Assembly (NCBI GenBank): GCA_000482765.1
Contig: AXWR01000005.1
Coordinates: forward strand, 62,001-126,000
Source of the DNA: Meiothermus taiwanensis DSM 14542
Lineage (GTDB): Bacteria; Deinococcota; Deinococci; Deinococcales; Thermaceae
Length of the DNA: 64,000 nucleotides
Reading direction: 5' to 3'
Part shown: positions 16,725 through 39,390 of the stretch, piece by piece
Numbering within the stretch: position 1 is the stretch's first letter
Layout: each line of letters opens with the position of its first letter
Notes under the pieces: generated by a model
Told to the model about the DNA's origin: nothing
What the model saw: the letters and a program-made list of their open reading frames with translations, nothing else
The model's database searches: none
Translations under genes and position numbers: made by a program

Positions 16725-16875
16725 ATACCGGATTCAAAAAGATAGTCATCCAAAGCAAAGATCTCCAGAGGCTGGCTTTTTTAAGCCTAAAGCGCTCCCT
16801 TCCAAGGGGCGGTATCGCCCTCCGCTACGCGGATAACTTCGGTCGGGTTAGCTCGCCGCCTTCCGGATCTGGTAT
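16725..16875 (+). mobile_element. MITE-like repeat, copy A
   Basis: 151 bp bounded by ATACCGGATTC and GGATCTGGTAT, with TA next to each end. The internal parts (CCTTCCAAGGGGCGGTA, CCGCTACGCGGATAACTTCGG) recur in the other copies. It begins directly at the terminator T-run of the preceding gene and ends about 200 bp before the cold shock gene, so it lies in or near that gene's leader. Confidence 0.82.
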
Positions 16876-17073
16876 TACTTGAGTAGACATAGTTCGCTGA
16901 GTAGTGCTATCTTGAGGCGTCTGGGAGTTTTCTGAGGTGGCCCATGTTGTTTTGTCCACGGCCTGGCGATGGGGGGATTTTCTGTGGCCAGGGGTGGTCG
17001 GATGATGTTTGGGTAGTTCAGCGCCTTGGTCCCGGGCCGGGTTACTTTGCAGTTGCCCGCGGTAAGGAGCAGT
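16876..17073 (+). promoter_or_regulatory. Long leader region of the cold shock gene
   Basis: 198 bp between the MITE copy and the csp start. Possible promoter TTGAGT (16879-16884) with a poor -10 (TAGTGC, 16902-16907). If transcription starts here, the mRNA has a roughly 160-nt 5' leader, like the thermosensing leaders of cspA mRNAs in other bacteria. GGTAAGGAG (17061-17069) is the ribosome site. The leader function is inference only. Confidence 0.35.
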
Positions 17074-17301
17074 ATGCAAAAAGGTAAGGTCAAGTGGTTC
17101 AATGCAGAGAAGGGCTATGGCTTTATCCAGCGCGAGGAGGGTGAGCCGGACGTATTTGTGCACTACAGCGCCATTCAGTCTCGCGGTTTTCGCACCCTGA
17201 ACGAAGGCGATGTGGTAACCTTCGAGATTGAGCCTGGAAAGAACGGCAAGGGGCCTCAGGCTGCAAATGTGAGCGTGGTTGAGCCGGCCAAGCGTTTCTA
17301 A
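17074..17301 (+). CDS. csp: Cold shock domain protein
   Basis: 75 residues, one cold shock domain. RNP1 KGYGFIQ and RNP2 VFVHYSAI are intact, as is KVKWFN at the N-terminus. It binds single-stranded RNA/DNA and acts as an RNA chaperone. ATG 17074 follows GGTAAGGAG and gives the canonical N-terminus [10 protein letters not shown]; upstream in-frame codons are not homologous to the family. A GC-rich hairpin follows the stop. Confidence 0.95.
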
Positions 17302-17315
17302 AGGTAACCAACCTG

Positions 17316-17348
17316 GAGGGAGGGGCCCCGGCCCCTCCCTCGCTCTTT
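17316..17348 (+). terminator. Likely terminator of the csp gene
   Basis: Near-perfect stem GAGGGAGGGGCC / GGCCCCTCCCTC centred at 17328-17329, followed by GCTCTTTG, a weak T-run. Confidence 0.7.
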
Positions 17349-17430
17349 GTGGGCCGGCTCGTTGCTTTAAGCAAGCAATACCGTCTTGGTTCGCCTGGAG
17401 CAGAACCGGGCCGCGCCGCACTAAATTTTT

Positions 17431-17664
17431 CTAAGCTTGCTTGCTCTGGATGAAATCGATGGCGTCCTGTACGGTGCGGATTTTTTCCGCTTCTTCGTCG
17501 GAGATCTCCAAACCGAACTTATCCTCCAGGCCCATGATCAGCTCCACGGTATCGAGGCTATCGGCGCCCAGGTCTTCGATAAAGCGGGCTTCGGGCACTA
17601 CCTTGTCGGCATCCACGCCGAGTTTGTCCACAATTACCTCTCTTACATCGTCCAGGATTGCCAT
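17431..17664 (-). CDS. acpP: Acyl carrier protein
   Basis: 77 residues, acidic, with the [10 protein letters not shown] motif; Ser36 is the 4'-phosphopantetheine site. Length and sequence are standard. It is the last gene of the fab operon on the minus strand and carries growing acyl chains for FabH/FabF/FabG/FabZ and acyl donors for lipid synthesis. Its start is preceded by GGAGGTT, a strong ribosome site, consistent with high ACP demand. Confidence 0.97.
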
Positions 17665-17754
17665 GTTTTAACCTCCATAGGTTAGGGTTTATTCTACCGT
17701 GCGGGATTCTACCACATCAAAACCGGCCTCGGGGCCAGGCGGGGCTCGAGCATT

Positions 17755-18492
17755 CTAGTGCGGGGTCATGCCGCCGTCCACACACAGGGTCTGTCCGGTG
17801 ATGTAGGCGGCGTCGTCCGAGGCCAGAAAAGCCACGGCCTTGGCCACTTCCTCGGGCTTACCGAAGCGCCCGGCGGGGATCTGCTTGAGGTACTCGGCCA
17901 CAACCTGCTCGGGCAGTTTGGCGGTCATGTCCGACTCAATAAACCCTGGCGCCACGGCGTTGACGGTGATGCCCCGGGCGGCGTACTCCTTGGCCACCGA
18001 CCTGGTGAAGCCAATCAGGCCCGCCTTGGCCGCCACGTAGTTGGCCTGGCCGGGGTTGCCCAGAAGGCCCACCACGCTGCTGATGTTGATGACCCGGCCC
18101 CATCTGGCCCGCATCATCAGCTTGATGGCCTCGCGGGTGGTGTGGAAGATGGCGCTCAGGTTGGTGGCGATCACCGTATCCCAGTCCTCGTCCTTCATGC
18201 GGATCAGAAGGGTGTCGCGGGTGATGCCGGCGTTGTTGACCAGCACCTCCAGTCCACCCAGGGCGGCGTTGGCGTCGGCCACCAGCTTCTGAGCCGCTTG
18301 TGCGCTGCTCAGGTCGGCCCCCAGCACCACCACCTGGCTGGCCCCCAGGGCCCGGGCCTCGGCGGCGGTGGCCTCGGCGGCGGCCTGGTTGCCGGCATAG
18401 TGCACCGCCAGGGCATAGCCCCGCCGGGCCAGCTCCAGGGCAATGGCTTTCCCGATTCCACGCGACGAACCTGTTACCAGCGCTTTTCGCAT
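17755..18492 (-). CDS. fabG: 3-oxoacyl-ACP reductase FabG
   Basis: 245 residues, SDR fold: NADPH motif TGSSRGIG (7-14), NNAG (86-89), catalytic Ser139, Tyr152 and Lys156 (YVAAK). Reduces 3-oxoacyl-ACP to 3-hydroxyacyl-ACP in type II fatty acid synthesis. It follows fabD by 14 bp and precedes acpP by 90 bp on the same strand. GGAGGAAG lies just before ATG. Compare the second SDR at 32096, in which Tyr and Lys are missing. Confidence 0.96.
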   Translation of the reverse strand: MRKALVTGSSRGIGKAIALELARRGYALAVHYAGNQAAAEATAAEARALGASQVVVLGADLSSAQAAQKLVADANAALGGLEVLVNNAGITRDTLLIRMKDEDWDTVIATNLSAIFHTTREAIKLMMRARWGRVINISSVVGLLGNPGQANYVAAKAGLIGFTRSVAKEYAARGITVNAVAPGFIESDMTAKLPEQVVAEYLKQIPAGRFGKPEEVAKAVAFLASDDAAYITGQTLCVDGGMTPH

Positions 18493-18506
18493 ACTTCCTC
18501 CAGATG

Positions 18507-19427
18507 TTAGCCTTGCCCCAACACGGCCAGGCTCTCGGCGATTTCTTGTGGGTTGGTTAGCGCACGTGCCTCCACCCCTTCCAGGGTGCGCCCCACCAGG
18601 CCGGTGAGTACTTTACCCGAGCCGAACTCGAGGTACACCCTCACCCCTTGCTCTTTCAGGTGCTGCAGAATCTCCACCCAGCGCACCGCATGGGTGATCT
18701 GTTCCAGCAGCAGCTCCCGAATTACCGGGGGGCGGGTCTCGGGCTGGGCCAGCACGTTGGAGTACACCGGGAAGCGGGGGGTGGAGAGCTCCACCTGGGC
18801 CAGGTCGGCGGCCAGACGCTCCCGAGCAGGCCGCATCAGCGAGGAGTGAAATGGGGCCGAGACCGGCAGGGGTATGACTCGAGCCCGTTGGCTTTTCAAC
18901 ACTTCAGCGGCCTCTGCAACCCCCGCGGCCGTGCCGGAGATGACGGTTTGCTCGGGCGAGTTGTAGTTGGCGATCTCCACCCCAGCAATGCCGGCGGTCA
19001 GCTCCTGGATGGTCTGGGCGGGAACCTTCAAAACGGCGGCCATGGCCCCCGCCCCCACCGGCACGGCTTCCTGCATGTACTCGCCGCGCCTGCGCACCAG
19101 GCGCAGGCCGTCCTCCAGGCTCAGGGTGCCGGCGGCCACATGGGCCGTCCACTCGCCCAGGCTGTGCCCCGCTGCGAAGCTGGGTAGCGCACCGCCCATT
19201 TCCAGATAGGCCTGGAAGGCCGCGTAGCCCACCGCCAGGAGGGCCGGCTGCTGGTTGGCGGTTAGTTTGAGTTCCTCCTCCGGGCCTTCCCACATCAACT
19301 TAAGCAAACCGGGCAAAGCGGCCTCGGCCCGCTCCAGGGCCTCGCGGGCCGCCCTCGAGCCTTCATAAAGCGCCCGGCCCATGCCAATTTCCTGCGACCC
19401 CTGTCCGGGGAACAAAGCTGCCATCAT
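18507..19427 (-). CDS. fabD: Malonyl-CoA:ACP transacylase FabD
   Basis: 306 residues with N-terminal FPGQGSQ, nucleophile Ser89 in GHSLGEW and His194 in APFHSSLM. Transfers malonyl from CoA to ACP. Start ATG-ATG at 19427; GGAGGTGCAGC lies just upstream. Second catalytic gene of the operon after fabH, 34 bp downstream of it. Confidence 0.96.
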   Translation of the reverse strand: MMAALFPGQGSQEIGMGRALYEGSRAAREALERAEAALPGLLKLMWEGPEEELKLTANQQPALLAVGYAAFQAYLEMGGALPSFAAGHSLGEWTAHVAAGTLSLEDGLRLVRRRGEYMQEAVPVGAGAMAAVLKVPAQTIQELTAGIAGVEIANYNSPEQTVISGTAAGVAEAAEVLKSQRARVIPLPVSAPFHSSLMRPARERLAADLAQVELSTPRFPVYSNVLAQPETRPPVIRELLLEQITHAVRWVEILQHLKEQGVRVYLEFGSGKVLTGLVGRTLEGVEARALTNPQEIAESLAVLGQG

Positions 19428-19461
19428 GCTGCACCTCCAGCGTGTTGCAAATGCGCCTGCC

Positions 19462-20439
19462 CTAGTCCGGCTGCCACCAGGTCATCACGCTGGCGGCCCA
19501 GGTGAGGCCCGCGCCAAAGGTCACAAAGAGGATGTGGTCGCCGTTGTGGATCTTACCTGCGTCCAGGGCCTCCTGCAGCGCGATGGGCATGGAGGCCGTG
19601 GAGGTGTTGCCGTAGCGGTCTACGTTGACCCAGACCTGCTCCGGGGGCAACCCCAGGCGCTCGCGGGCCGCCTCGATGATGCGGGCATTGGCCTGGTGGG
19701 GGATCAGGTACTTGATGTCCTCGGGTTTCAGCCCGGCTTTTTCGATGGCCTCGAGCGTAGCGGTGTTCATCACCCGCACCGCAAACTTGAAGACCTCGCG
19801 CCCGTTCATGTAGGCGTACTGGCGCATGGGGCTGCCGTCGGGCAGCTTGTCGGCGATGCAGCGCAGCATCAGCTCTTTACCCCCCGAACCGTCGGCCCCC
19901 AGCACAAACGACTTGAAGCCGTACCCTTCTGGCACCGGGCCGATGACCGCTGCCCCGGCCCCATCGCCAAACAGCACCGCCGTGGAGCGGTCGGTGTAGT
20001 CGAGGATTTTGGAGAGGGTCTCAGAGCCAATGGTCAGCACCTTGCGGGCCAGCCCGCTTTTTACCATGGCATGGGCCTGGGCAATGGCATAACCCCAGCC
20101 CGGGCAGCCCGCCAGCAGGTCGTAGGCGCCGGCGCTCAAACCAAAGCGATCCTGCACCAGGGCAGCCGTGGCCGGGAAAAGGGCGTCGGGGGTGTTGGTG
20201 GCCACGATGACCAGATCCACCCCTTCCAGCGCGCTACGCCCATGACGGCGTATGAGGTCTTCTACAGCTCGGAAAGCCAGGTGTGAGGTGAACTCCCCCT
20301 CGGCGGCCAGCCGCCGCTCACGGATTCCCGTGCGGCTGACGATCCACTCGTCGGATGTATCCAGGATCTTCTCAAAATCGTGATTGGTCATCACCCGCTC
20401 GGGGGCGTAGGTGCCTAGGGCAAGGATACCAATGTTCAA
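19462..20439 (-). CDS. fabH: 3-oxoacyl-ACP synthase III FabH
   Basis: 325 residues. Catalytic Cys112 (LAGCPGWGYA), His248 (IPHQANARI) and Asn278 (YGNTSTASM) are present. Starts fatty acid synthesis by condensing acyl-CoA with malonyl-ACP; in this group it likely uses branched primers (iso/anteiso acids are typical of Thermus relatives; established knowledge). The start codon is TTG at 20439, supported by TTTAGGAGGCAACG upstream. plsX, often found between rpmF and fabH, is absent. Confidence 0.95.
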   Translation of the reverse strand: MNIGILALGTYAPERVMTNHDFEKILDTSDEWIVSRTGIRERRLAAEGEFTSHLAFRAVEDLIRRHGRSALEGVDLVIVATNTPDALFPATAALVQDRFGLSAGAYDLLAGCPGWGYAIAQAHAMVKSGLARKVLTIGSETLSKILDYTDRSTAVLFGDGAGAAVIGPVPEGYGFKSFVLGADGSGGKELMLRCIADKLPDGSPMRQYAYMNGREVFKFAVRVMNTATLEAIEKAGLKPEDIKYLIPHQANARIIEAARERLGLPPEQVWVNVDRYGNTSTASMPIALQEALDAGKIHNGDHILFVTFGAGLTWAASVMTWWQPD

Positions 20440-20627
20440 CGTTGCCTCCTAAAGCTGCCCCAAAAGCATAGGGCACTTCAACAAAGATAACACCCCGACC
20501 CCCCCTTGTGCCGGAATGCAGTTTGAACCAAGTCTAGACGGCAGGCCCGGCGGATATGGCCACGGCAAGGGAAAAAAGCAAACCCAGCCGACGGATCGTG
20601 CCGGTCTGGGGATTTTTGCAGCCAGAT

Positions 20628-20819
20628 TTAGGCTTGGACTTCCAGTACTTTCTTGCCGGCGTAGTAGCCGCAGCTATCACAGACGCTGTGGGGTGGGATC
20701 AAAGCCCCGCAGTTGGCGCACTTGATGAGGGTGGGAGCCGTGAGGGTGGAAACCGCAGCCCGGCGGATATCCCGGCGGGACTTGGAGACTTTTTTCTTGG
20801 GTACTGGGTGCTTGGCCAT
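20628..20819 (-). CDS. rpmF: 50S ribosomal protein L32, zinc-binding form
   Basis: 63 residues, MAKHPVPKKKVSKSRRD start typical of L32. Cys34, Cys37, Cys47 and Cys50 form a zinc ribbon (CANCGAL...CDSCGYY), i.e. the C+ paralogue. Heads the fab operon as in many bacteria, linking ribosome and membrane synthesis. AAAGGAAGTG precedes ATG. Confidence 0.96.
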   Translation of the reverse strand: MAKHPVPKKKVSKSRRDIRRAAVSTLTAPTLIKCANCGALIPPHSVCDSCGYYAGKKVLEVQA

Positions 20820-20883
20820 CTTGGGTCACTTCCTTTGGGAATACCAACCCCTGGGTGGGGTTGCGCTCGGCAAACCGTTCTCC

Positions 20884-20912
20884 AATCTACAGGCTGAAGC
20901 TCAAAAGGTCAA
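20884..20912 (-). promoter_or_regulatory. Promoter of the rpmF-fab operon
   Basis: On the minus strand: TTGACC (20912-20907), 17-bp spacer, TAGATT (20889-20884). The -35 box overlaps the last codons of the SAM hydrolase gene. Leader of about 60 nt before rpmF. Confidence 0.72.
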
Positions 20913-21670
20913 CCCAAAAGCTCCACCCGATCCCCCTGCTTTAGGCCCAGCTGCTCCTGGGCATTACCCAGATGGATGGCCACCTCTAAAAGCCCGGCGC
21001 TGCCCACATAGGCCAGGGCGCTTCCTACCGGAACCTCGGCATAATGGGAGGCTACCGGAATGTGGTGGTAGCGGATGCGCACCTTTTTGCCACGGATCTG
21101 GGCGGGGGTGGCCAGCAGGGTGGTGATGGCATTGCCAAAGCGGTCAAATGTGAGTATCTCGCCGTGGTTGCCAAAGTTCAGATGAATGGGCAGGCGCACC
21201 AGCTCGGCGACCGGCAGCTCTGGGCCGAAGCGGGCCGGTTCAACCCCCGAGGCCAGGTGGGCCGCGACCGGCCCAAACACGTCGCGCCCGTGAAAGGTGG
21301 CCGATTTGCGGGGCAGGTGGTAGGTGGGGTTCTCCAGCAGGTAGGCTCGGCGCGGGGGGTCTTGCAGGTAGGCCAGGGTGAGCAGGCCATTGTCGGGGGC
21401 CACATAACAAAGGCGCTCGCCGATTACCAGGACGGCCCGGCGAGCGGAGCCCACCCCCGGATCAACCACCGCCAGCACCACCGAGTGTTTGGGCAGGTAC
21501 GGCACCGATTCGTACAAAATGTAACTGGCCCGGTTCAGGTCGCCGGGTGGTAGGTTGTGGGCCAGGTCGTGAACAACCACCCCCGGCGCTGTTTGCCGCA
21601 TGACTGCCTTGACCACCGCAGCGTAGGGGTCGGCCAGGCCAAAATCGGAGAGAAAGAATATTTCCTGCAT
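20909..21670 (-). CDS. SAM hydroxide adenosyltransferase (SAM hydrolase, DUF62 family)
   Basis: 253 residues from ATG 21670. N-terminus IFFLSDFGLADPYAAVVK, then VVDPGVGSARRAVLV, YVAPDNGLL and the C-terminal FGNAITT are hallmarks of the chlorinase-like family that hydrolyses S-adenosylmethionine to adenosine and methionine. ATG 21670 starts at the family's first strand; the open frame extends upstream to 21763 but that part has no family features and runs into a repeat element. Physiological role is unclear, probably SAM homeostasis. Confidence 0.88.
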   Translation of the reverse strand: MQEIFFLSDFGLADPYAAVVKAVMRQTAPGVVVHDLAHNLPPGDLNRASYILYESVPYLPKHSVVLAVVDPGVGSARRAVLVIGERLCYVAPDNGLLTLAYLQDPPRRAYLLENPTYHLPRKSATFHGRDVFGPVAAHLASGVEPARFGPELPVAELVRLPIHLNFGNHGEILTFDRFGNAITTLLATPAQIRGKKVRIRYHHIPVASHYAEVPVGSALAYVGSAGLLEVAIHLGNAQEQLGLKQGDRVELLG

Positions 21671-21745
21671 CCCCACGAAGTCTATACAATAAAGAATGCC
21701 CTGCACAGCCACTTCCCAAAGCTCGAGCCGGGGGCAGGCAGGCGC

Positions 21746-21915
21746 ATTCGGATCGTTCGTCACCGAATGGCGGTGAACTATCCCGACCGAAGTTATCCGC
21801 GTAGCGGAGGGCGATACCGCCCCTTGGAAGGGATAGGCTGCGTAGCGAGGGGTGTGCTCTGGGATTCAAAAAGATAGCCTCTGGAGGTGGATGACGACCT
21901 TTTTGAATCCGCTAT
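21746..21915 (-). mobile_element. MITE-like repeat, copy B
   Basis: About 170 bp in minus orientation. The right end GAATCCGCTAT is at 21905-21915; the left end is eroded (no full ATACC end) but GTTCGTCACCGAATGGCGGTGAAC and CCGACCGAAGTTATCCGCGTAGCGG match copy G closely. It fills the gap between the SAM hydrolase start and the stop of the TPR membrane protein, and its edge touches the last codons of the latter. Confidence 0.78.
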
Positions 21916-23411
21916 CAGTAGACGAGCAGTGTGCGCACCCAAGGTAGGTTGGCAACCAGGGTCAGAATTAATCCGGCCAGAACCCAGGCTGTGGCCCCAG
22001 CCAGCGCCCCCTTGGTACGCAGGTAAAGCCAGCCCAGAAAGAGGCTGGATATCAGGAAGAAAATCGTGGGCCCGGGGATCGCCAGGGCATACAGCGCCGG
22101 GATCATCAAGCCGCTTAGCTCCTTATAGCGCTCCTTAAAGATCGGATACCCCACCCCGCGAATCACCACCTCTAGAAAGGCCAGCCCGAAGAAAATGGGA
22201 TACATGGTGCCAAGCCCGCTCAGGCCTAGGGGCTTGGCGATGTAAGCGTACAAGCCCAGCAAGGCCAGCAAGACCAACCCCGCCCAGGTGCCTTCTATCC
22301 AGCTCGAGCGCGGCCCAAGGGCCTGGATCAGGCCCGGCTGCCCTACCATTCGATAGGCGATGAGCAGCGCGAAAGCACCCATTAAGAAGTAAAACACCGG
22401 GCGCACAACCTGTCCCTGGAAAGGGGTAAACAGGGCCAGTAAGTTCTGATAAAGCACCTGTCCGATGCCTATACTGGACAAGCCCGCTAAAGCAATGGCC
22501 AGCAGGAGCCACAGGTGAACCGAGCCGGGCCCAAAGCGCCGCTCGTTGCCCATTTCCACGGTGCGCATCGGTTCAATACGGCTTTCACCGTAGAGCACCA
22601 GCGCCAGGTAAACCAAAAATACAGCCAGCCACGGCCAGACCTTGCTGAGCAGGCTGCTGGGCAGGCTGACCCTCGAGGACAGCTGTCGCAAAACCAGGGC
22701 GCCTTTTTCGAACTCCCCCAGGCCGTAATAGACCATTGCCAGCAGACCCAAGGTCTGGATGTAGTCCTTTTCCAGGGGGCCCAGGCGGGGTAGGACTTCT
22801 TCAAGGGCCTCTGCTGCTGCGCGGGAATTGCCAGAAAGCCACATTAAGCGGGCTTGCGCTAGCTGTTCTTTAGGACTGCTCCCCAGCAAGCCCAGGGCTT
22901 CTTGGGGCCGTCCCAGACGCTCTGCAAGCCGGGCGGCTCCTAAGCGAGCCTCTGCCGAGGCGGTTATTCGGAGGTAAGTGGCGTAGGCCTCCTCGTAGCG
23001 GCCCAGGGCCTCGAGTACCTGGGCTCTCAGCAGCACTGCTTCGGTGTTGAGCCCCCGGGGCAGGCGCTCGAGCGCCTCGGATGGCCGCCCCTCCAACAGC
23101 AAAAAGCGAGCCTCCAGCAGGGCCACCTCGGGGTCTTGGGGGCCCAGTTGCTTCATTTGCTGAAGGAAGGGCTGGGCCGCACCCAGGTTGTTTTCCTCCA
23201 GGTAGATGCGTCCCAGCAGTTTGATGCTGGGCAGGTGATTGGGGTTGTCCACCAGCGCGAGCTGACAGGTTGCCTTGGCGCTATCCCGCACCCCCTGGTC
23301 GTATAGGGCCTTGCACTGGGTGTAGTAGCCTTCGGCGCCAAGCTGGGCCAAGGCCGTAAACGCAAATAGGGCGATTCCCACGGCAAAAGGAACCGCTCGT
23401 AACGCTACCAT
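21915..23411 (-). CDS. TPR protein fused to a multi-pass membrane domain (degenerate CPBP-like)
   Basis: 498 residues from ATG 23411. A signal or anchor helix (about 1-22) is followed by TPR-like repeats (about 25-260) and then seven or eight transmembrane helices (about 270-495). The end of the membrane part resembles the CPBP/Abi protease fold: FLEVVIRGVGYPIF stands where EExxxR is expected (first Glu replaced by Leu), and IFFLISSLFLGWLYLRTKGAL fits the later motif but lacks its His. So it is probably a non-catalytic relative. Divergent from the next TPR gene with a 107-bp gap. Function unknown; a protein-assembly scaffold is a guess. Confidence 0.72.
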   Translation of the reverse strand: MVALRAVPFAVGIALFAFTALAQLGAEGYYTQCKALYDQGVRDSAKATCQLALVDNPNHLPSIKLLGRIYLEENNLGAAQPFLQQMKQLGPQDPEVALLEARFLLLEGRPSEALERLPRGLNTEAVLLRAQVLEALGRYEEAYATYLRITASAEARLGAARLAERLGRPQEALGLLGSSPKEQLAQARLMWLSGNSRAAAEALEEVLPRLGPLEKDYIQTLGLLAMVYYGLGEFEKGALVLRQLSSRVSLPSSLLSKVWPWLAVFLVYLALVLYGESRIEPMRTVEMGNERRFGPGSVHLWLLLAIALAGLSSIGIGQVLYQNLLALFTPFQGQVVRPVFYFLMGAFALLIAYRMVGQPGLIQALGPRSSWIEGTWAGLVLLALLGLYAYIAKPLGLSGLGTMYPIFFGLAFLEVVIRGVGYPIFKERYKELSGLMIPALYALAIPGPTIFFLISSLFLGWLYLRTKGALAGATAWVLAGLILTLVANLPWVRTLLVY

Positions 23412-23518
23412 GGGGGTAGTGTAACATGCACATCCAGGGTTGCCGCCCACAGATGCACATCCGGTACAATCCGTGCGACTTTGTGGTAGGTTGTGTGCCG
23501 TTATACAGGGAGGAAACT

Positions 23519-24208: not shown

Positions 24209-24257
24209 GGCTTGCTCGAGGGCTGCTTCTGTGCAGCCCCGCGCCTGGATCCCTTTC

Positions 24258-24292
24258 ATACCAGGTAAGGGAGTGCTCTAGGACTCAAAAAG
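24258..24292 (-). repeat. MITE-like repeat, remnant copy C
   Basis: ATACC end followed by GGTAAGGGAGTGCTCTAGGACTCAAAAAG, which matches the segment before the AT-rich terminus of copies B and G. The rest is missing, so this is a decayed or deleted copy. Confidence 0.6.
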
Positions 24293-24296
24293 CGAG

Positions 24297-24342
24297 GCGG
24301 GGCCTGTACAACCTTGCAAAACCGGGCCCCGCGCATTTTTTT
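24297..24342 (+). terminator. Terminator after the exported TPR gene
   Basis: Stem GCGGGGCC (24297-24304) / GGCCCCGC (24325-24332), 20-nt loop, then GCA and seven T (24336-24342). Confidence 0.85.
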
Positions 24343-24413
24343 GAAGACGATTTGGTACAATTTCACACGGGCTAACCCCCTTTTGCAGTTCTCGATTTTT
24401 AAAAGGAGCTTTG

Positions 24414-24992: not shown

Positions 24993-25002
24993 CCCTCATT
25001 CC

Positions 25003-26564: not shown

Positions 26565-26671
26565 GGCCTGAACCCACAGCCGACACTATGCAGCAAGAGG
26601 TCAGCTTCTAAGTACCCAAGATTAATGCACCTGGGGCAGGGCGGCTGTGAGCCGATAGCCTATTGGTTTAG

Positions 26672-27534: not shown

Positions 27535-27541
27535 GACCTTT

Positions 27542-28771: not shown

Positions 28772-28843
28772 CCGGGCAGGCCCGATTGGCAGGGCCTCCT
28801 ACAGAAGGCTTTGGCGGATCGCCGAGGCCGGGGGTTCGTTGTT

Positions 28844-28938
28844 ATACCGGACTCATAATTATCCAGGCCCTTCGCGAGCATGCCCTTTGGTCGGGCTGGT
28901 TCGCTGCCTTCCGGCGCCGAACTAACCGAATCTGGTAT
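28844..28938 (+). mobile_element. MITE-like repeat, short copy D
   Basis: 95 bp from ATACCGGACTC to GAATCTGGTAT, TA at both ends. The central hairpins are deleted compared with copies A and E, but both termini and GGTCGGGCTGGTTCGCTGCCTTCC are kept. Confidence 0.78.
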
Positions 28939-28996
28939 TACAGGCCAGGCCCGGCTGCCATTCGCTTATCATTTTTTAGCGTATCATTGAGGAAAT

Positions 28997-30244
28997 ATGG
29001 CCCTACGACATGCGCTATTAAGCGGTATGGCAGCCTTCGCCCTGGTGGGTTCAGCGGTGGCTTCGCCTGCCCAGGATCTTTTCGACCAGGCCACCTTCTT
29101 AATCGGTTTTTACTACAACGGCCCGGCCAAGGTTCCCCCCTTCAGGGAGCTGCGGCGGCAGTACCAGCCGGAACTCGATCGGCTCTGCGCTTCTGAAGGC
29201 AGCCGCTGCGGTTTTGATAAAGCCAAACAGGTTATCGAGCGCATTGTGCGGGATATTGCCGATCCGTTTACGGTCTTGGTCACGCGAGATCAGCTCATCG
29301 ATGACGAGCGCTATGGGGCCGGCCTGGGGCCCGCGGCCCCCAGGATAGGGGTCTGGGTACGCGAGACTCCCAGGGGGCTGGTGGTGAGCGAGGCCTTTCC
29401 CGGTGAGCCCGCCTACGAGGCCGGGCTGCGCCGGGGCGACCTGATTACCCAGATTGCAGACCAGCCCGCGACCCTGGCCCGGCTGAGTGCGGCTGAAGCA
29501 GCCCGCAGCCCCTTTAGCCTGCGTTATAGCCGGCAGGGTACGGCCCGCAGCGCGACCCTCACCCCACGGGTGGCCGAGGCCACCATGCAGCCCAGGCTGG
29601 AGATCAACAACAACATCGCCTATCTGCGCATCTATCACCTTTACAGCTCGGACAGCTACTCCACCGCCCAGCGCATCCACGAGGCCGCGCGCCGGGCGGA
29701 GCAGGCCGGGGCTCGTGGGATGGTGATCGACCTGCGCGATGCCCTGACCGGTTACGACTCGGAAGCCTTGCTGGCGGCGGCGGCCTTTACTGGCAAGGGG
29801 GGGTTCATTTACGACCGCCGCTTCCAGGGGCTGGACGAGACCCACACCGTGGAAAACGGCAGGCTCTACGTACAACCCGAGGGAGGCGAAAAGGAGGAGC
29901 AGAGCGCTCTCGAGCGGCCTTACCTGGCCCGCATCCCGGTGGTGGTGCTGGTTAATCGCCATACCTATAACTCTGCCGAGATGCTGGCCTACTTCCTGCA
30001 GGCGGCAGGTCGGGCCAAGGTGGTGGGTGAGCCCACCGCTGGTGCCCTGGGGATGTCGGGTAGCGCCGAGGGCCCCCTTATCAACGGCGATTTTATCGCG
30101 GTTTCTTCACTTAGAATGCGCAACCTGGATGGCTCGCCCTTCCCCCTCAAAGTCAGCCCCGATGTGCTGGTGGAGGACGACCTCGAGGCCCTTGTTGCTG
30201 GGCGTGATCCGGTGCTGGAACGCGCCCTGGAAATGCTGCGATAG
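28997..30244 (+). CDS. Exported S41/CtpA-like protein, catalytic residues apparently lost
   Basis: 415 residues: signal peptide (1-23, ending AVAS), helical N-terminal part with a Cys pair (LCASEGSRC), PDZ-like segment (about 115-185, GEPAYEAGLRRGDLITQI) and a C-terminal S41 core. In S41A peptidases the nucleophile sits three residues before a Glu and the Lys 25 residues later; here those positions hold Asn325 (HTYNSAEML) and Ala350 (EPTAGAL). A neighbouring Ser326 might serve in a tricorn-like arrangement, but this is doubtful. It is 9 bp before a paralogue. Probably a periplasmic substrate-binding or scaffold protein. Confidence 0.75.
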   Translation: MALRHALLSGMAAFALVGSAVASPAQDLFDQATFLIGFYYNGPAKVPPFRELRRQYQPELDRLCASEGSRCGFDKAKQVIERIVRDIADPFTVLVTRDQLIDDERYGAGLGPAAPRIGVWVRETPRGLVVSEAFPGEPAYEAGLRRGDLITQIADQPATLARLSAAEAARSPFSLRYSRQGTARSATLTPRVAEATMQPRLEINNNIAYLRIYHLYSSDSYSTAQRIHEAARRAEQAGARGMVIDLRDALTGYDSEALLAAAAFTGKGGFIYDRRFQGLDETHTVENGRLYVQPEGGEKEEQSALERPYLARIPVVVLVNRHTYNSAEMLAYFLQAAGRAKVVGEPTAGALGMSGSAEGPLINGDFIAVSSLRMRNLDGSPFPLKVSPDVLVEDDLEALVAGRDPVLERALEMLR

Positions 30245-30253
30245 GTGAATGCT

Positions 30254-31534
30254 ATGCGCCAACTGTTTGCCACCCTGGCCCTGCTGCTGGGCTCGCTTTC
30301 CCTGGCCTCACCGGCCCAGGATCTCTTCGATCAGGCCAGTTTTTATCTGGAGTTTTATTACAACGGCCCGGCTACGCTCAACCTCAAAGAGCTGACAGCG
30401 CGCTACCAGAGCGCACTGGATCGTGCCTGTGCACCCCAGAAAGACACCTGCCCCTACGAGCAAGCCGTCCCCGTCATCGAGCAGATGCTAGGGGAACTCA
30501 ACGACAACCACACCTACTACCTGAGTCCCGAGGAATTGCGGGGCTCCCGCGAAAGCCGTCAGGGTAACGCTCCTTCCCGCACGCTGCGCATTGGTGTAAG
30601 CCACCTGCCCATACCCGGTTCCCGCGACCGCCTCATTGTGGATGTGGTGGAGGGGGGGCCAGCTGACGAGGCCGGGCTGGCCTATGGCGACCGTATCATC
30701 GCCATTAACGGTCGGCTTCTGAGCGAGTTCCCCGACGATAACCAGGTCGTTCAGTTCTTGACGCAGTCGGTGCAGTCGGGGCGTCCGGTGGTTTTAACCA
30801 TTCTGCGCGGCCCTGAGCGCCAGCGCCTCGAGATCACCCTGACCGGACGCGAGATTAACCTGGCCCGCTTCCCCTCCCTCAAAATACGACCCGATGGCGT
30901 GGGTGTGCTCAAAATCCCCAACTTTGATGCACAGGGCCAGGTGGGCCGCCGGGTGCATGAGTTGGTGCGTGAAGCCCAGCAGAAAAATGTGCGGGCCCTG
31001 GTGCTGGAGTTGCGCGGTAACAGCGGTGGCCTGCTCAACGAGATGATACTGACGGCGGCCGCTTTCCTGGACGATGCCTATGTGGCCCTGGTAGACCGCT
31101 ACAATACCGAGCGCACCGAGTTTCGCATCCGCGATGGGCGGCTCACCATCACCCGCAACGGCCAGACCGAGACCGCCAACCTCCCTTTCCTGGCTCGCTG
31201 GCGCGGGCCGCTGGTGGTGCTGATTGATGGGAACACCGCCTCAGGGGGGGAGTACCTGGCCTCGGCCATCCAGCGGGCCAGAGTAGGGCCGCTGGTTGGG
31301 GTGGCCACCCTGGGCATCGGCAACACCACCACCCGCCCCTTCAATCTGATCAATGGTGGGGCTTTGAGCATCTCCTACAACCGGGCCTTTTTCGCCGACG
31401 GTACACCCTATCCGCCCCGGGCCATCCCAGACTTTGTGGTAGAGAGCTCCCTCGAGCAGCTCGCCAACACCGGACGCGACCTGCCCTTTGAAAAAGCCCT
31501 GGAAGCCCTGGGCATAAAGTCGGCTGATCGTTGA
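30254..31534 (+). CDS. Exported S41/CtpA-like protein, catalytic lysine replaced
   Basis: 426 residues from ATG 30254 (GTG 30245 is an alternative). Signal peptide 1-18, Cys pair (RACAPQKDTC), a PDZ domain (about 110-200, GGPADEAGLAYGDRIIAING) and the S41 core (LELRGNSGGLLNEM). Ser330 in GNTASGGEY is at the nucleophile position, but the Lys expected 25 residues later is Ile355 (TLGIGN). Canonical Ser-Lys catalysis is therefore unlikely. N-terminal halves of this and the previous protein are clearly alike (SPAQDLFDQA, FYYNGPA), showing a tandem duplication. Confidence 0.75.
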   Translation: MRQLFATLALLLGSLSLASPAQDLFDQASFYLEFYYNGPATLNLKELTARYQSALDRACAPQKDTCPYEQAVPVIEQMLGELNDNHTYYLSPEELRGSRESRQGNAPSRTLRIGVSHLPIPGSRDRLIVDVVEGGPADEAGLAYGDRIIAINGRLLSEFPDDNQVVQFLTQSVQSGRPVVLTILRGPERQRLEITLTGREINLARFPSLKIRPDGVGVLKIPNFDAQGQVGRRVHELVREAQQKNVRALVLELRGNSGGLLNEMILTAAAFLDDAYVALVDRYNTERTEFRIRDGRLTITRNGQTETANLPFLARWRGPLVVLIDGNTASGGEYLASAIQRARVGPLVGVATLGIGNTTTRPFNLINGGALSISYNRAFFADGTPYPPRAIPDFVVESSLEQLANTGRDLPFEKALEALGIKSADR

Positions 31535-31604
31535 AAGCACGGCCCTGGCAGGTTGAAAATTACAACGCAACCCAGCCTTATTGCTTACAATCTGGTTGAA
31601 CAGT

Positions 31605-32078: not shown

Positions 32079-32095
32079 ATGTTGGGGGCACGTCC

Positions 32096-32881: not shown

Positions 32882-32914
32882 GGGGCTGGGAAGGATGCGC
32901 GTTTTTGTAGAGCG

Positions 32915-33060
32915 ATACGGATCCCAAAAGACCCCCAGGGGCTATCTTTTTGCATCCTAGGGCCTTCCCTTCCAAGGGGCGGTAGGGCCCTCCGCTACGC
33001 GGATAACTTCGGTCGGGTGGGCTCGCTGCTTTCCGGCGGTGAACCGACCGAATCTGCTAT
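32915..33060 (+). mobile_element. MITE-like repeat, copy E
   Basis: 146 bp from ATACGGATCC to GAATCTGCTAT. Contains CTTCCCTTCCAAGGGGCGGTAGGGCCCTCCGC and the CCGCTACGCGG hairpin in pieces shared with copies A and F. It lies between two convergent genes. Confidence 0.82.
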
Positions 33061-33078
33061 GAGGCCGCAGAGCTGGCC

Positions 33079-33666: not shown

Positions 33667-33675
33667 ACACGCCGC

Positions 33676-34356: not shown

Positions 34357-34433
34357 AGCTGCCATCATAGAACTGAAGTGCCAGGACATTCATACAATGC
34401 AGGGTATGATTCGCTTGGCTGTAGGCTAGGATT

Positions 34434-35435
34434 ATGTTGCGGCTGGTGGGGCTCGGCAAAAGCTATCCGGGGTTCCGGCTGCGGGTCTCCCTCGAGGTCG
34501 AGGCGGGGCAGACCCTGGCCTTGCTGGGGCCTTCGGGCAGCGGTAAAAGCACGCTTTTGCGGCTGATAGCGGGTCTGGAGGCCCCGGAGGTTGGGGAAAT
34601 CTGGCTGGATGGAAGCGAGATCACCTTCCTGGCCCCGGAGGCGCGCCGGGTGGGGTTGGTGTTTCAGGATTATGCCTTGTTTCCGCATCTGTCGGTCTGG
34701 GAAAACATAGCCTTTGGTTTGCGGGAGGCCCGCTGGGATGGGGCCAGCATCCGGCAGCGCCTGACCGAACTGCTGGATCTGACCCATCTGGGGCCTCACG
34801 CGCAAAAACGCCCCCACCAGCTTTCGGGCGGTGAGCGCCAGCGGGTTGCGCTGGCTCGAGCCCTGGCCAGCCGGCCCCGCCTGTTGTTGCTGGACGAGCC
34901 GCTGGGGGCCCTGGATTTGAAGCTGCGGAATGAGCTGCTGTGGGAACTGCGGGCCATTTTACGGCAGACCGAGGTGCCGACCATTGTGGTGACCCACGAT
35001 CAGTCCGAGGCTTTTGTAATCGCCGATCAGGTGGCCCTGCTGAGGAACGGTGCTGTTGTGCAGACCGGCTCGCCCGAACAGCTTTTTCGCAACCCTAAAA
35101 ACGCCTGGGTGGCCGGCTTTCTGGGCCACCGCAACCTGCTGTCGGCCCAGCAGAGCCAACAGGTGGGGCTGCCGGCCCGCCCGCACCTGTTGCCGCCGGA
35201 GGCCATCACCCTGGGCCATGGGGAAGAGGCGCGGGTGGAAGAGCGGGTTTTTAAGGGTTTTGTGGTGGGCCTCGAGCTGGTCTGGCGAGGCTGTAGGCTG
35301 TACCTGGAGGGCCCCGAGCTGGGGCTTCGCCCTGGCGATACCGTCCAGCTACAGGTCGATTGGTCTAAGGTGGTTGTGCTGGAGGACGGCCCGGGGGCTG
35401 AGCATACGTCACTCGAAGCCCCTCGAGCCCACTAA
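34434..35435 (+). CDS. ABC transporter ATP-binding protein, thiamine/spermidine-type
   Basis: 333 residues. ATPase domain (1-235) with Walker A GPSGSGKST, Q-loop FQDYALFPHLSVWEN, signature LSGGERQRVALARAL and LLLDEPLGALD, as in ThiQ/PotA/FbpC. A C-terminal TOBE-like regulatory part (about 245-320) is present. It is 14 bp upstream of thiN, so thiamine import is the most likely function, but no binding protein or permease is adjacent. TACAAT at 34394-34399 may be the -10. No room for a TPP riboswitch exists in front. Confidence 0.8.
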   Translation: MLRLVGLGKSYPGFRLRVSLEVEAGQTLALLGPSGSGKSTLLRLIAGLEAPEVGEIWLDGSEITFLAPEARRVGLVFQDYALFPHLSVWENIAFGLREARWDGASIRQRLTELLDLTHLGPHAQKRPHQLSGGERQRVALARALASRPRLLLLDEPLGALDLKLRNELLWELRAILRQTEVPTIVVTHDQSEAFVIADQVALLRNGAVVQTGSPEQLFRNPKNAWVAGFLGHRNLLSAQQSQQVGLPARPHLLPPEAITLGHGEEARVEERVFKGFVVGLELVWRGCRLYLEGPELGLRPGDTVQLQVDWSKVVVLEDGPGAEHTSLEAPRAH

Positions 35436-35449
35436 GCGCCCTGTACCCC

Positions 35450-36088
35450 ATGCAACGCTTCACCATTCTGCTAGGAGGCCTGGTTACCCCGACCGAGCGG
35501 CTCAAAGCCCAGGTGGCTGGGAGCCGGGTTATTGCTGCCGATAGCGGTATGCGCCACGCCCAGGCCCTGGGGCTCGCGGCCGAGCTATGGGTGGGTGATT
35601 TCGACTCGGCCTCCCCGGAGCTTCAGCAGGCCTATGCCCAGGTGCCCCGCGAGGTTCATCCAGCGGCCAAGGACTTCACCGATGGTGAACTGGCCGTCCA
35701 GGCCGCCCTGGCCCGGGGGGCCGAGCAACTTGTTTTGGTGGGGGCCATGGGGGGCCAGACCGACCAGACCCTGGCCCATCTGCTGCTGGGTATCCGGCTG
35801 GCTCAGCAGGGGGTGCCGACCCTGCTGACCTCGGGCAACGAGGAAGCCCATCCTTTATTGCCGGGAATCCTGCGGCTGAACCTGCCGCCCCATAGCAGGC
35901 TAAGCCTGTTGCCGCTGGGAGGTTTTTCCGGTCTGAGCCTCCGTGGGACGCGCTGGTCTTTACACAGAGCCAGCGTGCCCTTGGGGAGTACCCAGACCCT
36001 TTCCAATCTGGCTTTGGGCCCTGTGGAGATCGAGCTCGAGGCCGGCTATGGGGTGGTGGTGGCCTACCCTGAACCGGCAACCTTGTGA
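35450..36088 (+). CDS. thiN: Thiamine pyrophosphokinase
   Basis: 212 residues. Motifs ADSGMRHAQALGL, VGDFDSAS, KDFTDGELA and GAMGGQTDQTLAHL are those of thiamine diphosphokinase, which makes TPP from thiamine and ATP. The C-terminal beta domain (SLLPLGGFSGLSLRG) binds substrate at the dimer interface. Cotranscribed with the ABC ATPase. Its 3' end overlaps the convergent hypothetical gene by 25 bp. Confidence 0.92.
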   Translation: MQRFTILLGGLVTPTERLKAQVAGSRVIAADSGMRHAQALGLAAELWVGDFDSASPELQQAYAQVPREVHPAAKDFTDGELAVQAALARGAEQLVLVGAMGGQTDQTLAHLLLGIRLAQQGVPTLLTSGNEEAHPLLPGILRLNLPPHSRLSLLPLGGFSGLSLRGTRWSLHRASVPLGSTQTLSNLALGPVEIELEAGYGVVVAYPEPATL

Positions 36089-36579
36089 AAATCGTCCAGG
36101 AAGAGCCCCAGGGCTTCAGCCAGACGTTCCTGCTCGAGCATGGCGTGTTCGAATACCTGGGGCTCGTCCAGCAGGGCCGGCAGGCGCAGCCATCCCAGGT
36201 AATAGCGCCCGGCCAGGCCAGGTTCCTTGAGCCGAAGCCGCTCGGTGTGCGAGAGGAGGGTTTCGAAGGCTTCGGGGCTGCACAACAAGGGGTGCCGTTG
36301 GGGAGGTAAACGCTTCAGGAAGGCCTTAAGCAGGCCGGGGTTGGACCAAAAGCCAAAATTAAGGTCGTCGGAGATCTGTTCAATGCGTGATAAAAGCGCA
36401 GGATCGCCCTGGCGGCCTACCAGCTTGCGCACCAACTCACTGCGACGAAGGCGCAGGGTGGCGTATTCGCTCAGCGAGTAGAGCCTGCCCGGAAAGAAGT
36501 CCAGGGCCTCGCGCAGACGGTGCGCGATGACGTAGTCCTGGTACTCCCTGAAGGGATCCACGCCTCTATTGTGCGACAA
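36064..36579 (-). CDS. Hypothetical helical protein
   Basis: 171 residues, rich in Leu, Arg and Glu, predicted all-helical, no signal peptide or membrane segment. Starts MSHNRGVDPFREYQDYVIAHRLREALDFFPGRLYSLSEY. I do not recognise a family; likely lineage-specific. It converges on thiN with a 25-bp overlap of coding ends. GC usage fits its neighbours, which together with length supports a real gene. Confidence 0.65.
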   Translation of the reverse strand: MSHNRGVDPFREYQDYVIAHRLREALDFFPGRLYSLSEYATLRLRRSELVRKLVGRQGDPALLSRIEQISDDLNFGFWSNPGLLKAFLKRLPPQRHPLLCSPEAFETLLSHTERLRLKEPGLAGRYYLGWLRLPALLDEPQVFEHAMLEQERLAEALGLFLDDFHKVAGSG

Positions 36580-36701
36580 GATGGGGGCTTAATGAAAGAC
36601 GTTGTGGGATATAGAACGCGCCCCGGGAGCCACTTTTTGCGCCCGAACGCGCTTGGGCGGGGCTTCACCCAATTTGGTTTACCGACACGGTATATTCAGG
36701 T

Positions 36702-36932
36702 ATGGATACCCGGGGTTGGGTGCTAAAAGCTATCGAGACGCTGCGCTTTGCCAGCGAGAAGGACATAATGCACTGGCTGGACGAAGAGGGTGAGACCCTG
36801 TCCAGGGATGAGCTGCGGCGCACCCTCGAGCTGCTGTTGCAAGAAGACCGGATCGAGCTAAAAAACGATCTCTTTCGCCTCAAGCGCAAGAGCAGTAGCC
36901 AGTCGGCTTTCGATAACCTGTTCAAGGATTGA
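36702..36932 (+). CDS. Small winged-helix-like protein
   Basis: 76 residues: VLKAIETLRFASEKDIMHWLDEEGETLSRDELRRTLELLLQEDRIELKNDLFRLKRK has the helix-helix-helix-wing rhythm of winged-helix DNA-binding domains. TATATT (36691-36696) lies 5 nt before ATG, suggesting a leaderless message. The stop codon overlaps the first base of a MITE-like copy. The function is unknown. Confidence 0.65.
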   Translation: MDTRGWVLKAIETLRFASEKDIMHWLDEEGETLSRDELRRTLELLLQEDRIELKNDLFRLKRKSSSQSAFDNLFKD

Positions 36933-37056
36933 CACCGGATTCCTAGAGCAAAGACCTCCAGGGGCTATCTTTTTGCATCCCAGGGCATTCCCTTCCAAGG
37001 GGCGGTAGGGCCCTAACTTCGGTCGGGTTGGTTCGCCCTGCCTGGGGGGCAGGTAT
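36932..37056 (+). mobile_element. MITE-like repeat, copy F
   Basis: About 125 bp from ACACCGGATTC. AGAGCAAAGACCTCCAGGGG, CCCTTCCAAGGGGCGGTAGGG and ACTTCGGTCGGGTTGGTTCGCC match other copies. The middle hairpin is missing and the right end is divergent (GGGGGCAGGTAT). The element starts on the last base of the preceding stop codon. Confidence 0.75.
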
Positions 37057-37104
37057 GATAACCCCACCCCATCCAACTCATGGGCCGGATGGCAGAATTG
37101 GGGC

Positions 37105-38280
37105 ATGAGCCGGCAATTGTTTTCGCGGGGGGTTCTGGGGCTGGTGACCATCGGGCTGCTGGCCCTGGCCCAGGCTTTTTCTACCGAGCGCATGCAGGCC
37201 GACCTAGAGGCCCTGTTATCCCAGGGGCCGCGGGTCGCGGGGCTGCCCGCTACCACTGCGGCTGGGGAATACCTGGCTGCTGAGCTGCGCAAGGTGGGCT
37301 ACATGGTGGAATTCCAGCCCTTCACCTACAGCCGTACCCGCGACCAGGGCTCGAGCCTCCAGGTGGGCGCGGCCACCTTTCCGGTCAGCAGCATCGCGGG
37401 TAGCCCGGGCCGACGGGTGGAGGGGCCGCTGGCGGTGGTGCCGGGGGCGGGGCTGGCCGCCGATTTCGCCAACCTGAACCTGCAGGGGGCCATTGCAGTG
37501 GTGCGCCGGGGTGGGATTCCCGGCCTCGAGAAGGCCCGGCTGGCCGCCGAGCGGGGGGCTGTGGGCATTGTCCTGCTGACCGAGGAGCCCAGCGGCACCC
37601 GCTTCACCTTTGGCGGCAACAGCCCCATTCCGGGGGTGACCCTCTCGCAGAGCGATGGCGCTGGGCTGTTCAGCCAAGCAGGAACCCGCGCCGTGCTGGA
37701 CGTGCGCATCCTGACCGAGGAGGTACAGGGGCGCAACGTGATCGCCAGGCGCGGTAGCCAGAATCCGCTGGTCGTTGTGGGGGCCCACTACGACTCGGTG
37801 CCGGGCAGCCCCGGGGCCAACGACAACGCCTCCGGCACCGTGACGGTGCTCGAGCTGGCCCGCCAGCTGGCCGATAGCCCCCTTTCAGCGCAGATCTGGT
37901 TCATGTTTTTTGATGGAGAAGAGGATGGGCTGTGGGGCTCGAGGCGTTTTGTAGAACAGAACCCCGAAATTGTGCGGGGCCTGAAGGGCATGCTCAACCT
38001 GGATATGGTGGGCGTCAACGTGAATGGCACCCTGGGCATCGGCGGGAGCGGTGAGCTGCGGGCGCTGGCCGATTGCAACGCCCTGCAGGTGGCCTGTGGC
38101 AGTGCGCCGGGCGGGGGCAGCGACCACGTACCCTTTGCCCAAGCCGGGGTGCCGGTGCTCTTCTTCTTCCGCGGACTCGACCCCAACTACCACCGCCCCA
38201 CCGATACTTTCGCCGACCCCGTGCTGATGGCCCAGACCGGTCGGGTGGTGCGGGGGGTTCTGGAAAGGCTGCTGCGCTAG
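37105..38280 (+). CDS. Exported M28-family zinc aminopeptidase with PA domain
   Basis: 391 residues: signal peptide (about 1-24), a PA-type insert (about 85-205, AIAVVRRGG...KARLAAERGAVGIVLL) and the M28 core. Zinc ligands His228 (GAHYDS), bridging Asp240 (GANDNASG), Glu273, Asp300 (LNLDMVG) and His363 (NYHRPTDT) are present, with Glu272 as general base. Two extra Cys (DCNALQVAC) may form a disulfide. It would trim peptides outside the cytoplasm for nutrition. Confidence 0.92.
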   Translation: MSRQLFSRGVLGLVTIGLLALAQAFSTERMQADLEALLSQGPRVAGLPATTAAGEYLAAELRKVGYMVEFQPFTYSRTRDQGSSLQVGAATFPVSSIAGSPGRRVEGPLAVVPGAGLAADFANLNLQGAIAVVRRGGIPGLEKARLAAERGAVGIVLLTEEPSGTRFTFGGNSPIPGVTLSQSDGAGLFSQAGTRAVLDVRILTEEVQGRNVIARRGSQNPLVVVGAHYDSVPGSPGANDNASGTVTVLELARQLADSPLSAQIWFMFFDGEEDGLWGSRRFVEQNPEIVRGLKGMLNLDMVGVNVNGTLGIGGSGELRALADCNALQVACGSAPGGGSDHVPFAQAGVPVLFFFRGLDPNYHRPTDTFADPVLMAQTGRVVRGVLERLLR

Positions 38281-38286
38281 CCCCCT

Positions 38287-39201
38287 TCAGGGCATCCAGT
38301 TTCCGCCGCACACAATCACCGCAATGCGCTCGGGTAGGTCGTAGCTCATCAGGGCCGGCCCCAAGGCCAGCCCGGCGGTGGGTTCCACCACCTGTTTGAG
38401 CCTTTGCATCATCAGGCGCTGGGCTTCCAAGGTAACCTCGTCCGGCACCGTCAGGATGCGGTCTACGTGGCGCTGCATGACCGGAAAGGTCTTCTCGCCA
38501 ACCACCAGGGTGCGCACCCCGTCGGCCACGGTTCTGGGGGCCTGCGACAGCTTCACGCGCCGCCCCGCCTGAAGGCTCTGCTGGGCATCGTTGGCGGTTT
38601 CGGGTTCCACCCCGATCACTTCACACGCGGGCCGCAGGCTCTTGATTACCGTGGCAATGCCCGAGATCAGCCCGCCCCCACCCACCGCCACCAAAACCGC
38701 GTCCAGATCGGGCACCTGTTGCAAAAGTTCCAGGGCCTGGGTGCCCTGGCCGGCCATCACCCGCAAGTCGTCGAACGGGTGGATGAGCGCAAAACCCGTC
38801 TCCTCGGCCAGCGCGCGCACCACCTGCTCGCGGTTCTCTACCGTCACCCCCTGGTCGTAGACCTCGGCGCCGTAGGCCCTTGTGGCCGCTTTTTTGGTGG
38901 GGGAGGCGTCCTCCGGCATCACCACCAGGGCCGGCACCCCCATCACCTGGGCCGCATAGGCCACCCCCTGGGCGTGGTTGCCCGAGGAGACCGCGATCAG
39001 GCCCCTGGGGTTTTGTAGCTGGAGGGCCGCGTTCAGGGCCCCCCGGGCTTTGAAGCTGCCGGTTTTTTGCAGGTGCTCGGCCTTGAAAAAAAAGCGGCGG
39101 CCCAGAAGCTTGTCCAGCCCCTGGCTGGTAAATACCGGGGTACGGTGGATGTGGGGGGCAATGCGCTGGGCCGCGTGTTGGATATCTTGCAGGGTTAGCA
39201 C
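38287..39201 (-). CDS. Threonine/serine dehydratase, PLP-dependent
   Basis: 304 residues, one catalytic domain without the ACT-like C-terminal regulatory part of IlvA. PLP lysine in KTGSFKARGA, substrate loop SSGNHAQG, glycine loop VGGGGLISG. Could be catabolic threonine dehydratase (TdcB-like) or serine racemase; threonine deamination to 2-oxobutyrate is the likelier role. It has a MITE copy right upstream of its start, so its promoter may have been displaced or provided by the element. Confidence 0.88.
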   Translation of the reverse strand: MLTLQDIQHAAQRIAPHIHRTPVFTSQGLDKLLGRRFFFKAEHLQKTGSFKARGALNAALQLQNPRGLIAVSSGNHAQGVAYAAQVMGVPALVVMPEDASPTKKAATRAYGAEVYDQGVTVENREQVVRALAEETGFALIHPFDDLRVMAGQGTQALELLQQVPDLDAVLVAVGGGGLISGIATVIKSLRPACEVIGVEPETANDAQQSLQAGRRVKLSQAPRTVADGVRTLVVGEKTFPVMQRHVDRILTVPDEVTLEAQRLMMQRLKQVVEPTAGLALGPALMSYDLPERIAVIVCGGNWMP

Positions 39202-39213
39202 AGCCCCATGCTA

Positions 39214-39379
39214 ATACCAGATTCGGTTAGTTCGTCACCGAATGGTGGCGAACTAACCCGACCGAAGTTATCCGCGTAGCGGAGGGCGATACTGCCCCTT
39301 GGAAGGGAGTGCTCTAGGATTCAAAAAGATAGCCTCTGGAGGTCTTTGCTTTGGAAGATTATCTTTTTGAATCCGGTAT
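39214..39379 (-). mobile_element. MITE-like repeat, best-preserved copy G
   Basis: 166 bp from ATACCAGATTC to GAATCCGGTAT, TA on each side. Contains three strong hairpins: GGTTAGTTCG/CGAACTAACC (39225-39234/39249-39258), CCGC-GTA-GCGG near the centre, and a perfect 15-bp stem starting GGATTCAAAAAGATA (39317-39331/39360-39374). No coding capacity. It lies in the shared upstream region of two divergent genes. Confidence 0.85.
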
Positions 39380-39390
39380 AACAGGAGCCT

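Follow-up and report, generated by a model that had tools for sequence, protein, structure and literature searches.

The window analysed here is a 64-kb stretch of the Meiothermus taiwanensis DSM 14542 draft genome (positions 62001-126000 of contig C5 in the 3.02-Mb assembly G000, hereafter the own genome). It contains seven copies of a short, hairpin-rich repeat within 23 kb, designated A to G (Table 1). All seven had been proposed in an earlier note on this DNA and were found at the coordinates given there. An independent repeat search also recovered the family, with long direct or inverted pairs among the full copies (A and G over 144 nt at 90%, E and G over 137 nt at 82%) and a 42-nt stretch, 67% alike, shared by the remnant copy C and copy B. 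The left hairpin comes first in B, C (judged by eye) and G and is reversed in A, D, E and F, which confirms that both orientations occur. Each copy falls between open reading frames (ORFs) taken as genes, in agreement with the intergenic position described before. Copy A has a solute-binding-protein ORF on one side and a cold-shock (CSD) ORF on the other, and copy G sits between divergent ORFs. ORF 36702-36932 has the left TGA of copy F as its stop codon, and the earlier note had correctly placed the start of this copy on the final base of that codon; its statements on the cold-shock neighbour of copy A and the divergent setting of copy G held as well. The right-hand TCA of copy B (21915-21917) is the minus-strand TGA stop of ORF 21915-23450, which contains TPR repeats. 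One end is lost in each of copies B and C. The repeat very probably represents a family of non-autonomous miniature inverted-repeat transposable elements (MITEs), which duplicate TNA on insertion, carry modular hairpins, are enriched on stop codons and would be moved by a transposase acting in trans.

Table 1 Copies of the Meiothermus MITE in the window; all coordinates are window positions
Copy	Position	Strand	Target duplication	Remarks
A	16726..16874	-	TTA, 16723-16725 and 16875-16877	
B	21746..21914	+		left tip lost
C	24258..24292	+		remnant; left tip fused to inner piece of right part
D	28845..28937	-	TTA, 28842-28844 and 28938-28940	internally shortened
E	32916..33059	-	CGA/TGA (one base changed)	between convergent ORFs
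F	36933..37055	-	TGA, 36930-36932 and 37056-37058	
G	39215..39378	+	TAA, 39212-39214 and 39379-39381	most complete copy in the window

The elements end in 10-bp terminal inverted repeats, TACCRGATTC and GAATCYGGTA. Intact copies measure 95 to about 480 bp, most of them less than 280 bp, and contain no transposase gene. Target duplications were counted in 80 rows located by the ends alone, 33 from the own genome and 47 from relatives. The base before ATACC equalled the base after GGTAT in 66 rows, T occupied position -2 in 73 and A position +2 in 75. Intact TNA-TNA pairs were present in 62 of the 80 (23/33 in the own genome and 39/47 in relatives; permutation p < 1e-4 in each group), whereas TA flanked both sides in a single copy. 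The duplication is thus TNA and the element spans TACC to GGTA. With these boundaries (TNA/TACC...GGTA/TNA) the coordinates of the earlier note take in one base of each duplication. Within the window both sides are identical in copies A, D, F and G.

Related genomes retain the synteny of the region, with identities per piece of 87-93% in G005 and 77-93% in G014, and permitted an empty-site comparison. A clean single TAA occupies the position of copy G in G005, G014, G013 and G001, while TAA flanks the inserted copy on either side. The gene that precedes copy F terminates with the same TGA in G005, G014 and G013, where the element is absent. Mobility with a 3-bp TNA duplication is near certain. 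The earlier note had seen TA adjoining both ends, which it took to fit an origin from IS630/Tc1 with duplication of a TA target. The end strings do contain TA (TACC...GGTA), and the own genome yielded seven weak-to-moderate DDE_3 matches, one of them over the cut-off. This origin is nevertheless highly improbable given the lone TA-TA copy and the TAA of the empty copy G site, and no facing pair of MITE ends was found at the seven DDE_3 loci.

The family far exceeds the window. With copy G as query, the own genome gave at least 54 matches at E <= 0.001 (40 of 158 candidates scored), and 108 exact ends TNATACCRGATTC were counted, compared with none for the same pattern read backwards as a control. 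Across 18 genomes of the genus, exact ends numbered from 0 (G004, G007, G008 and G011) to 351 (G003), with controls of 0 to 2. By DNA comparison the element was carried by 19 of 50 genomes of the taxonomic family; the carriers were 15/18, 2/2 and 2/2 in three genera and 0/27 (g4) and 0/1 (g5) in two others. The named records with the element are plasmids of Meiothermus taiwanensis WR-220 and Allomeiothermus silvanus DSM 9946, and the phage collection gave no match. Near-identical copies in both orientations in G001 indicate that the family was apparently active recently. The earlier description as a hairpin-rich, MITE-like element is borne out by the short length, inverted ends, target duplications, empty sites and more than 100 exact ends, together with the lack of a transposase gene.

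Some copies adjoin other repeats or each other. Two MITEs stand in tandem in L264 (G020) with one common TTA between them, so that one was inserted into the duplication of the other. At about 1195-1545 of L167 (G012) the MITE directly adjoins another repeat, whose inverted ends are TGGTCTGGTAAC...GTTACCAGACCA; several G012 copies have this repeat in common within a larger one. The flanks of L167 resemble those of L169 on both sides, but the MITE orientation is opposite.

In the general architecture of the element, optional modules lie between a left hairpin (GGTTAGTTCG...CGAACTAACC) on one side and a right hairpin (GGATTCAAAAAGATA...TATCTTTTTGAATCC) on the other. A 38-bp module is present 0, 1, 2, 3 or 5 times per copy and a 39-bp module up to six times, and further modules add about 30 bp or more. 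The differing internal deletions reported earlier for the window copies were upheld. One insertion is common to G015, where it measures 165 bp, and G003, where it measures 197 bp. Its 200-bp flanks are 94.5% and 96.0% identical and the difference amounts to one 32-bp module, which demonstrates that modules change in place. At this site one genome has CTTT as the loop of the left hairpin, where the other has AAAG. In a set of 81 left hairpins, both reverse-complementary forms were seen for five loops (GAAT/ATTC 27/4, GGAA/TTCC 7/1, GGAT/ATCC 7/1, CTTT/AAAG 4/3 and ATTT/AAAT 2/1) and a single form for seven others. These loop forms suggest inversion via template switching or cruciform processing.

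The position of the insertions relative to genes was assessed with genes called by a codon-usage script and with 62 unique intact insertions; of the 80 rows, L153 and a 225-bp match in the window were judged spurious and left out of the element references and of the analyses of position, context and orientation. None of the 62 insertions lay inside a called gene, compared with 3092 of 4671 nearby TNA sites. Fourteen were located exactly on a stop codon, a position held by 65 of the 1579 TNA sites in non-coding DNA (odds ratio 6.8, p 5e-7). This excess of insertions on stop codons is a new observation. It was seen against TNA sites within 300 bp both in the own genome (7/23, p 1e-4) and in relatives (7/39, p 0.002), and with stricter gene calls the counts were 5/23 (p 0.0025 and 0.0011) and 4/39 (p 0.045 and 0.018), respectively. 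Since TNA includes TAA and TGA, the duplication rebuilds the stop.

The excess could have been chosen by the transposition machinery through the target context, rather than by selection alone, a possibility to which we give slightly less than even weight. Stop codons were favoured (odds ratio 4.1, p 0.003) even when set against TNA sites lying 1-50 bp downstream, where an insertion should do hardly more damage, and the base before TNA was C or G in 86% of the cases in the own genome and 74% in relatives, compared with about 50% in the null. On the other hand, the numbers are small (14 cases, or nine with the stricter gene calls), old and young copies are mixed, the genes come from a simple script, and the absence of insertions from genes shows that selection acts too.

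The left end faced the gene in 12 of the 14 intact stop-codon cases (p 0.013). When window copies were added, the ratio became 12 to 3 with copy F (p 0.035) and 12 to 4 with copies F and B (p 0.077). A wider count of 15 to 2 includes L012, L022 and L132, which have no intact duplication and where the reconstruction favours the left end. The orientation bias at stops is weak, and between co-directional genes the two orientations numbered 19 and 18.

The hairpins themselves were examined as potential RNA structures. The folding energy of copy G was -73.6 kcal/mol on one strand and -63.3 kcal/mol on the other, with z-scores of -6.4 and -5.9 relative to shuffled sequences. RNAalifold gave a poor consensus on the gapped alignment; covariation was hence counted on the structure of copy G, a procedure that leans towards this structure. 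In an alignment of 63 of the 75 element references, 94.0% of the cells paired and 11 pairs had changes on both sides. Four of five measures were above all 500 shuffles, the fifth, further pair types, being reached by 18 of the 500, and slid versions of the structure scored lower on every measure. These values do not prove an RNA role, because the structure was that of copy G and palindromes are capable of self-correction.

Strong folds, two-sided pair changes with a covariation score beyond every shuffle, the stop-codon excess and the predominance of left ends towards the gene would all be expected if the repeats were selected RNA elements, i.e. terminators, 3' stabilisers or attenuators whose hairpins are used by transcripts, with the excess at stops reflecting use as 3' ends. 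We regard this explanation as unlikely. Template-switching repair of palindromes also yields paired changes, and the loop inversions suggest such events. A comparison of G-U with A-C gave no clear strand: it pointed to the + strand, from which the structure itself was derived, by cells (225 to 47) but not by pairs (20 to 13, p 0.30). The orientation bias at stops falls to 12/16 (p 0.08) with copies B and F, and co-directional genes display none. Rfam 15 returned no match at gathering score in window 14000-42000 or in L167, L169, L171 and L180, and a consensus terminator scan of window 36900-39500 found no site within copies F or G. Of the earlier suggestion that the stem-loops could act in RNA, the stronger-than-shuffled folding and the covarying pairs stand, while terminators received no support inside copies F and G.

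For the non-autonomous MITE family we propose the following course of events. A transposase supplied in trans would recognise the 10-bp ends TACCRGATTC and GAATCYGGTA; insertion takes place at TNA with duplication of 3 bp, as the ends, duplications and empty sites show. Modules between the fixed left and right hairpins are lost, gained or multiplied in place, probably through slippage between short direct repeats. Insertions persist almost only outside genes and are enriched exactly on stop codons, where the TNA duplication rebuilds TAA or TGA; the gene would thereby keep its end and gain a hairpin-rich stretch behind it. A more far-reaching version, which we consider rather doubtful, treats stop codons as safe harbours of the family: a context-biased TNA target, a rebuilt stop and a 3' end that is rich in hairpins and preferentially oriented would allow the element to escape selection and to reshape transcript ends across a group of genera.

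The partner would most likely be an IS5-type, IS1031-like transposase. This assignment, judged by the target alone, is the weakest step and about evenly balanced between right and wrong. IS5-type transposases occur in the same genomes as the MITE. According to the published description of the IS1031 group of IS5, these insertion sequences (ISs) prefer TNA and generate a 3-bp direct repeat (PMC12016507), the same target and duplication as in the Meiothermus MITE. The published example differs in its 17-bp ends GAACCTGTCTAGTATCT and its transposase, whereas the MITE has TACCRGATTC and no transposase.

Transposase genes were searched with the profiles DUF4096, DDE_Tnp_1, DDE_Tnp_4 and DDE_Tnp_1_2 and, in the own genome only, DDE_3. 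There were 243 matches, of which 104 were taken as loci and scanned for ends with up to one or two mismatches; the lists of ends covered 100 of the 108 places in G000, the first places in G001 and in G003, and no place in several other genomes. A single-copy partner may therefore exist beyond these places. Among the loci scanned, a transposase between facing ends was met at one place only, in G015 (L055 = L100 = L244), with TAA on both outer sides. It encloses a 904-bp IS (DUF4096 and DDE_Tnp_1, in two frames) with 16-bp ends of its own, GAGGCTGTCGTAAAAG, and a TGA duplication. In view of these features the place was not accepted as an autonomous copy and was read as an IS inserted between MITE pieces, although the IS and the surrounding pieces might move as one unit. 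This IS shows that TNA-duplicating elements of the IS5 type live in these genomes.

Other candidates were rejected. A facing pair 3.4 kb apart in G003 was traced to two distinct copies of the MITE, and a composite transposon was dismissed in L180, where two copies of the 274-bp class flank an aminopeptidase-like ORF (named by eye). Of all 48 exact ends listed in G018, none formed a facing pair 0.5 to 60 kb apart.

Several results weigh against the proposed family and its mode of transposition. No autonomous element with these ends, of the IS5 family or any other, was found at the 104 loci that were scanned out of 243 transposase matches. The ends of ISs in these genomes (GAGGCTGTC...) differ from TACCRGATTC, as do the published ones of IS1031 type (GAACCTGTC..., PMC12016507). 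No intact TNA pair was present in 18 of the 80 copies, and duplication of 1 bp within a T-N-A target would yield the identical letters, which duplication of TA would not. The sites of copies A to E in relatives are ragged or filled with other sequence; at the copy E site, G014 and G013 have a different insert with related ends.

Further IS-like sequences were noticed at MITE ends. In three genomes (L267 at about 3190, L047 at about 1739 and L115 at 1-100) a sequence like GGAGTTACGC starts directly at a MITE end or close to it, and GGAGTTACGC adjoins an IS701-like ISMesi2 gene in pMESIL01. The MITE end is possibly a favoured landing site for ISs of the ISMesi2 type. At L222 1-210 (G001) the TAA of a MITE directly follows what looks like the end of an IS (...GACAGTCTC), as if the TNA were common to both.

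RUP and similar MITEs are of IS630 origin and duplicate TA; the Meiothermus MITE differs from them in its TNA duplication. Like RUP, the Meiothermus MITE is a short intergenic element with inverted repeats and would be moved in trans. BOX elements of Streptococcus pneumoniae are described as MITE-like and intergenic, with boxA and boxC ends around a hairpin module boxB present zero to several times; they have terminal inverted repeats and target duplications, occur in more than 100 copies and are in excess between convergent genes (PMC3049150). Compared by this description, the Meiothermus MITE is much like BOX in these features and likewise has fixed end modules around an internal module in zero to n copies. 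It differs from BOX in belonging to another phylum, in its ends TACCRGATTC and in the multiplication of at least two kinds of module (38 and 39 bp). Within the same phylum, the small noncoding repeats (SNRs) of Deinococcus radiodurans are numerous and of mosaic structure (PMC1978522), and resemble the MITE by description. Common descent with the SNRs across the phylum is unsupported, as none of the 28 genomes in g4 and g5 carries the element. The Meiothermus MITE is a new family with unusual features and not a new kind of element.

A search of the open-licence literature, which leaves most subscription literature outside, found no description of a MITE in Meiothermus; one paper that it returned names a MITE-finding program (PMC6352166). 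The present family adds a large, modular and apparently recently active MITE to a thermophile group, and offers clean empty sites as well as an orthologous pair in which a module changed in place. The stop-codon preference and the in-place turnover of modules are the features most deserving attention. If the TNA duplication does make stops harmless landing sites, this would help to account for the way in which small transposons populate gene-dense genomes at little cost and turn into 3' untranslated regions.

Some minor observations concern single sites. Copy A is placed at the end of a T-run (window 16695-16725) behind a GC-rich inverted repeat AACGCTCGCCGGCAACGGCGGGCGTTTT, and the insertion target was therefore a likely terminator of the upstream gene. 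Copy C in its present form was not found in G005, G014, G013 and G001. A string resembling the left end, CATACCAGATTCACCGTGC..., stands alone in the own genome and is closely matched by CATATCAGATTCACCGTGC in G017 (L124 at 791 and L097 at 1158); it may represent an ancient solo end or a promoter-like sequence that matches by chance. Finally, two adjacent ORFs at window 28997-31534, the first an S41 peptidase with a PDZ domain, have 70 nt in common at 79% and are probably tandem paralogues.

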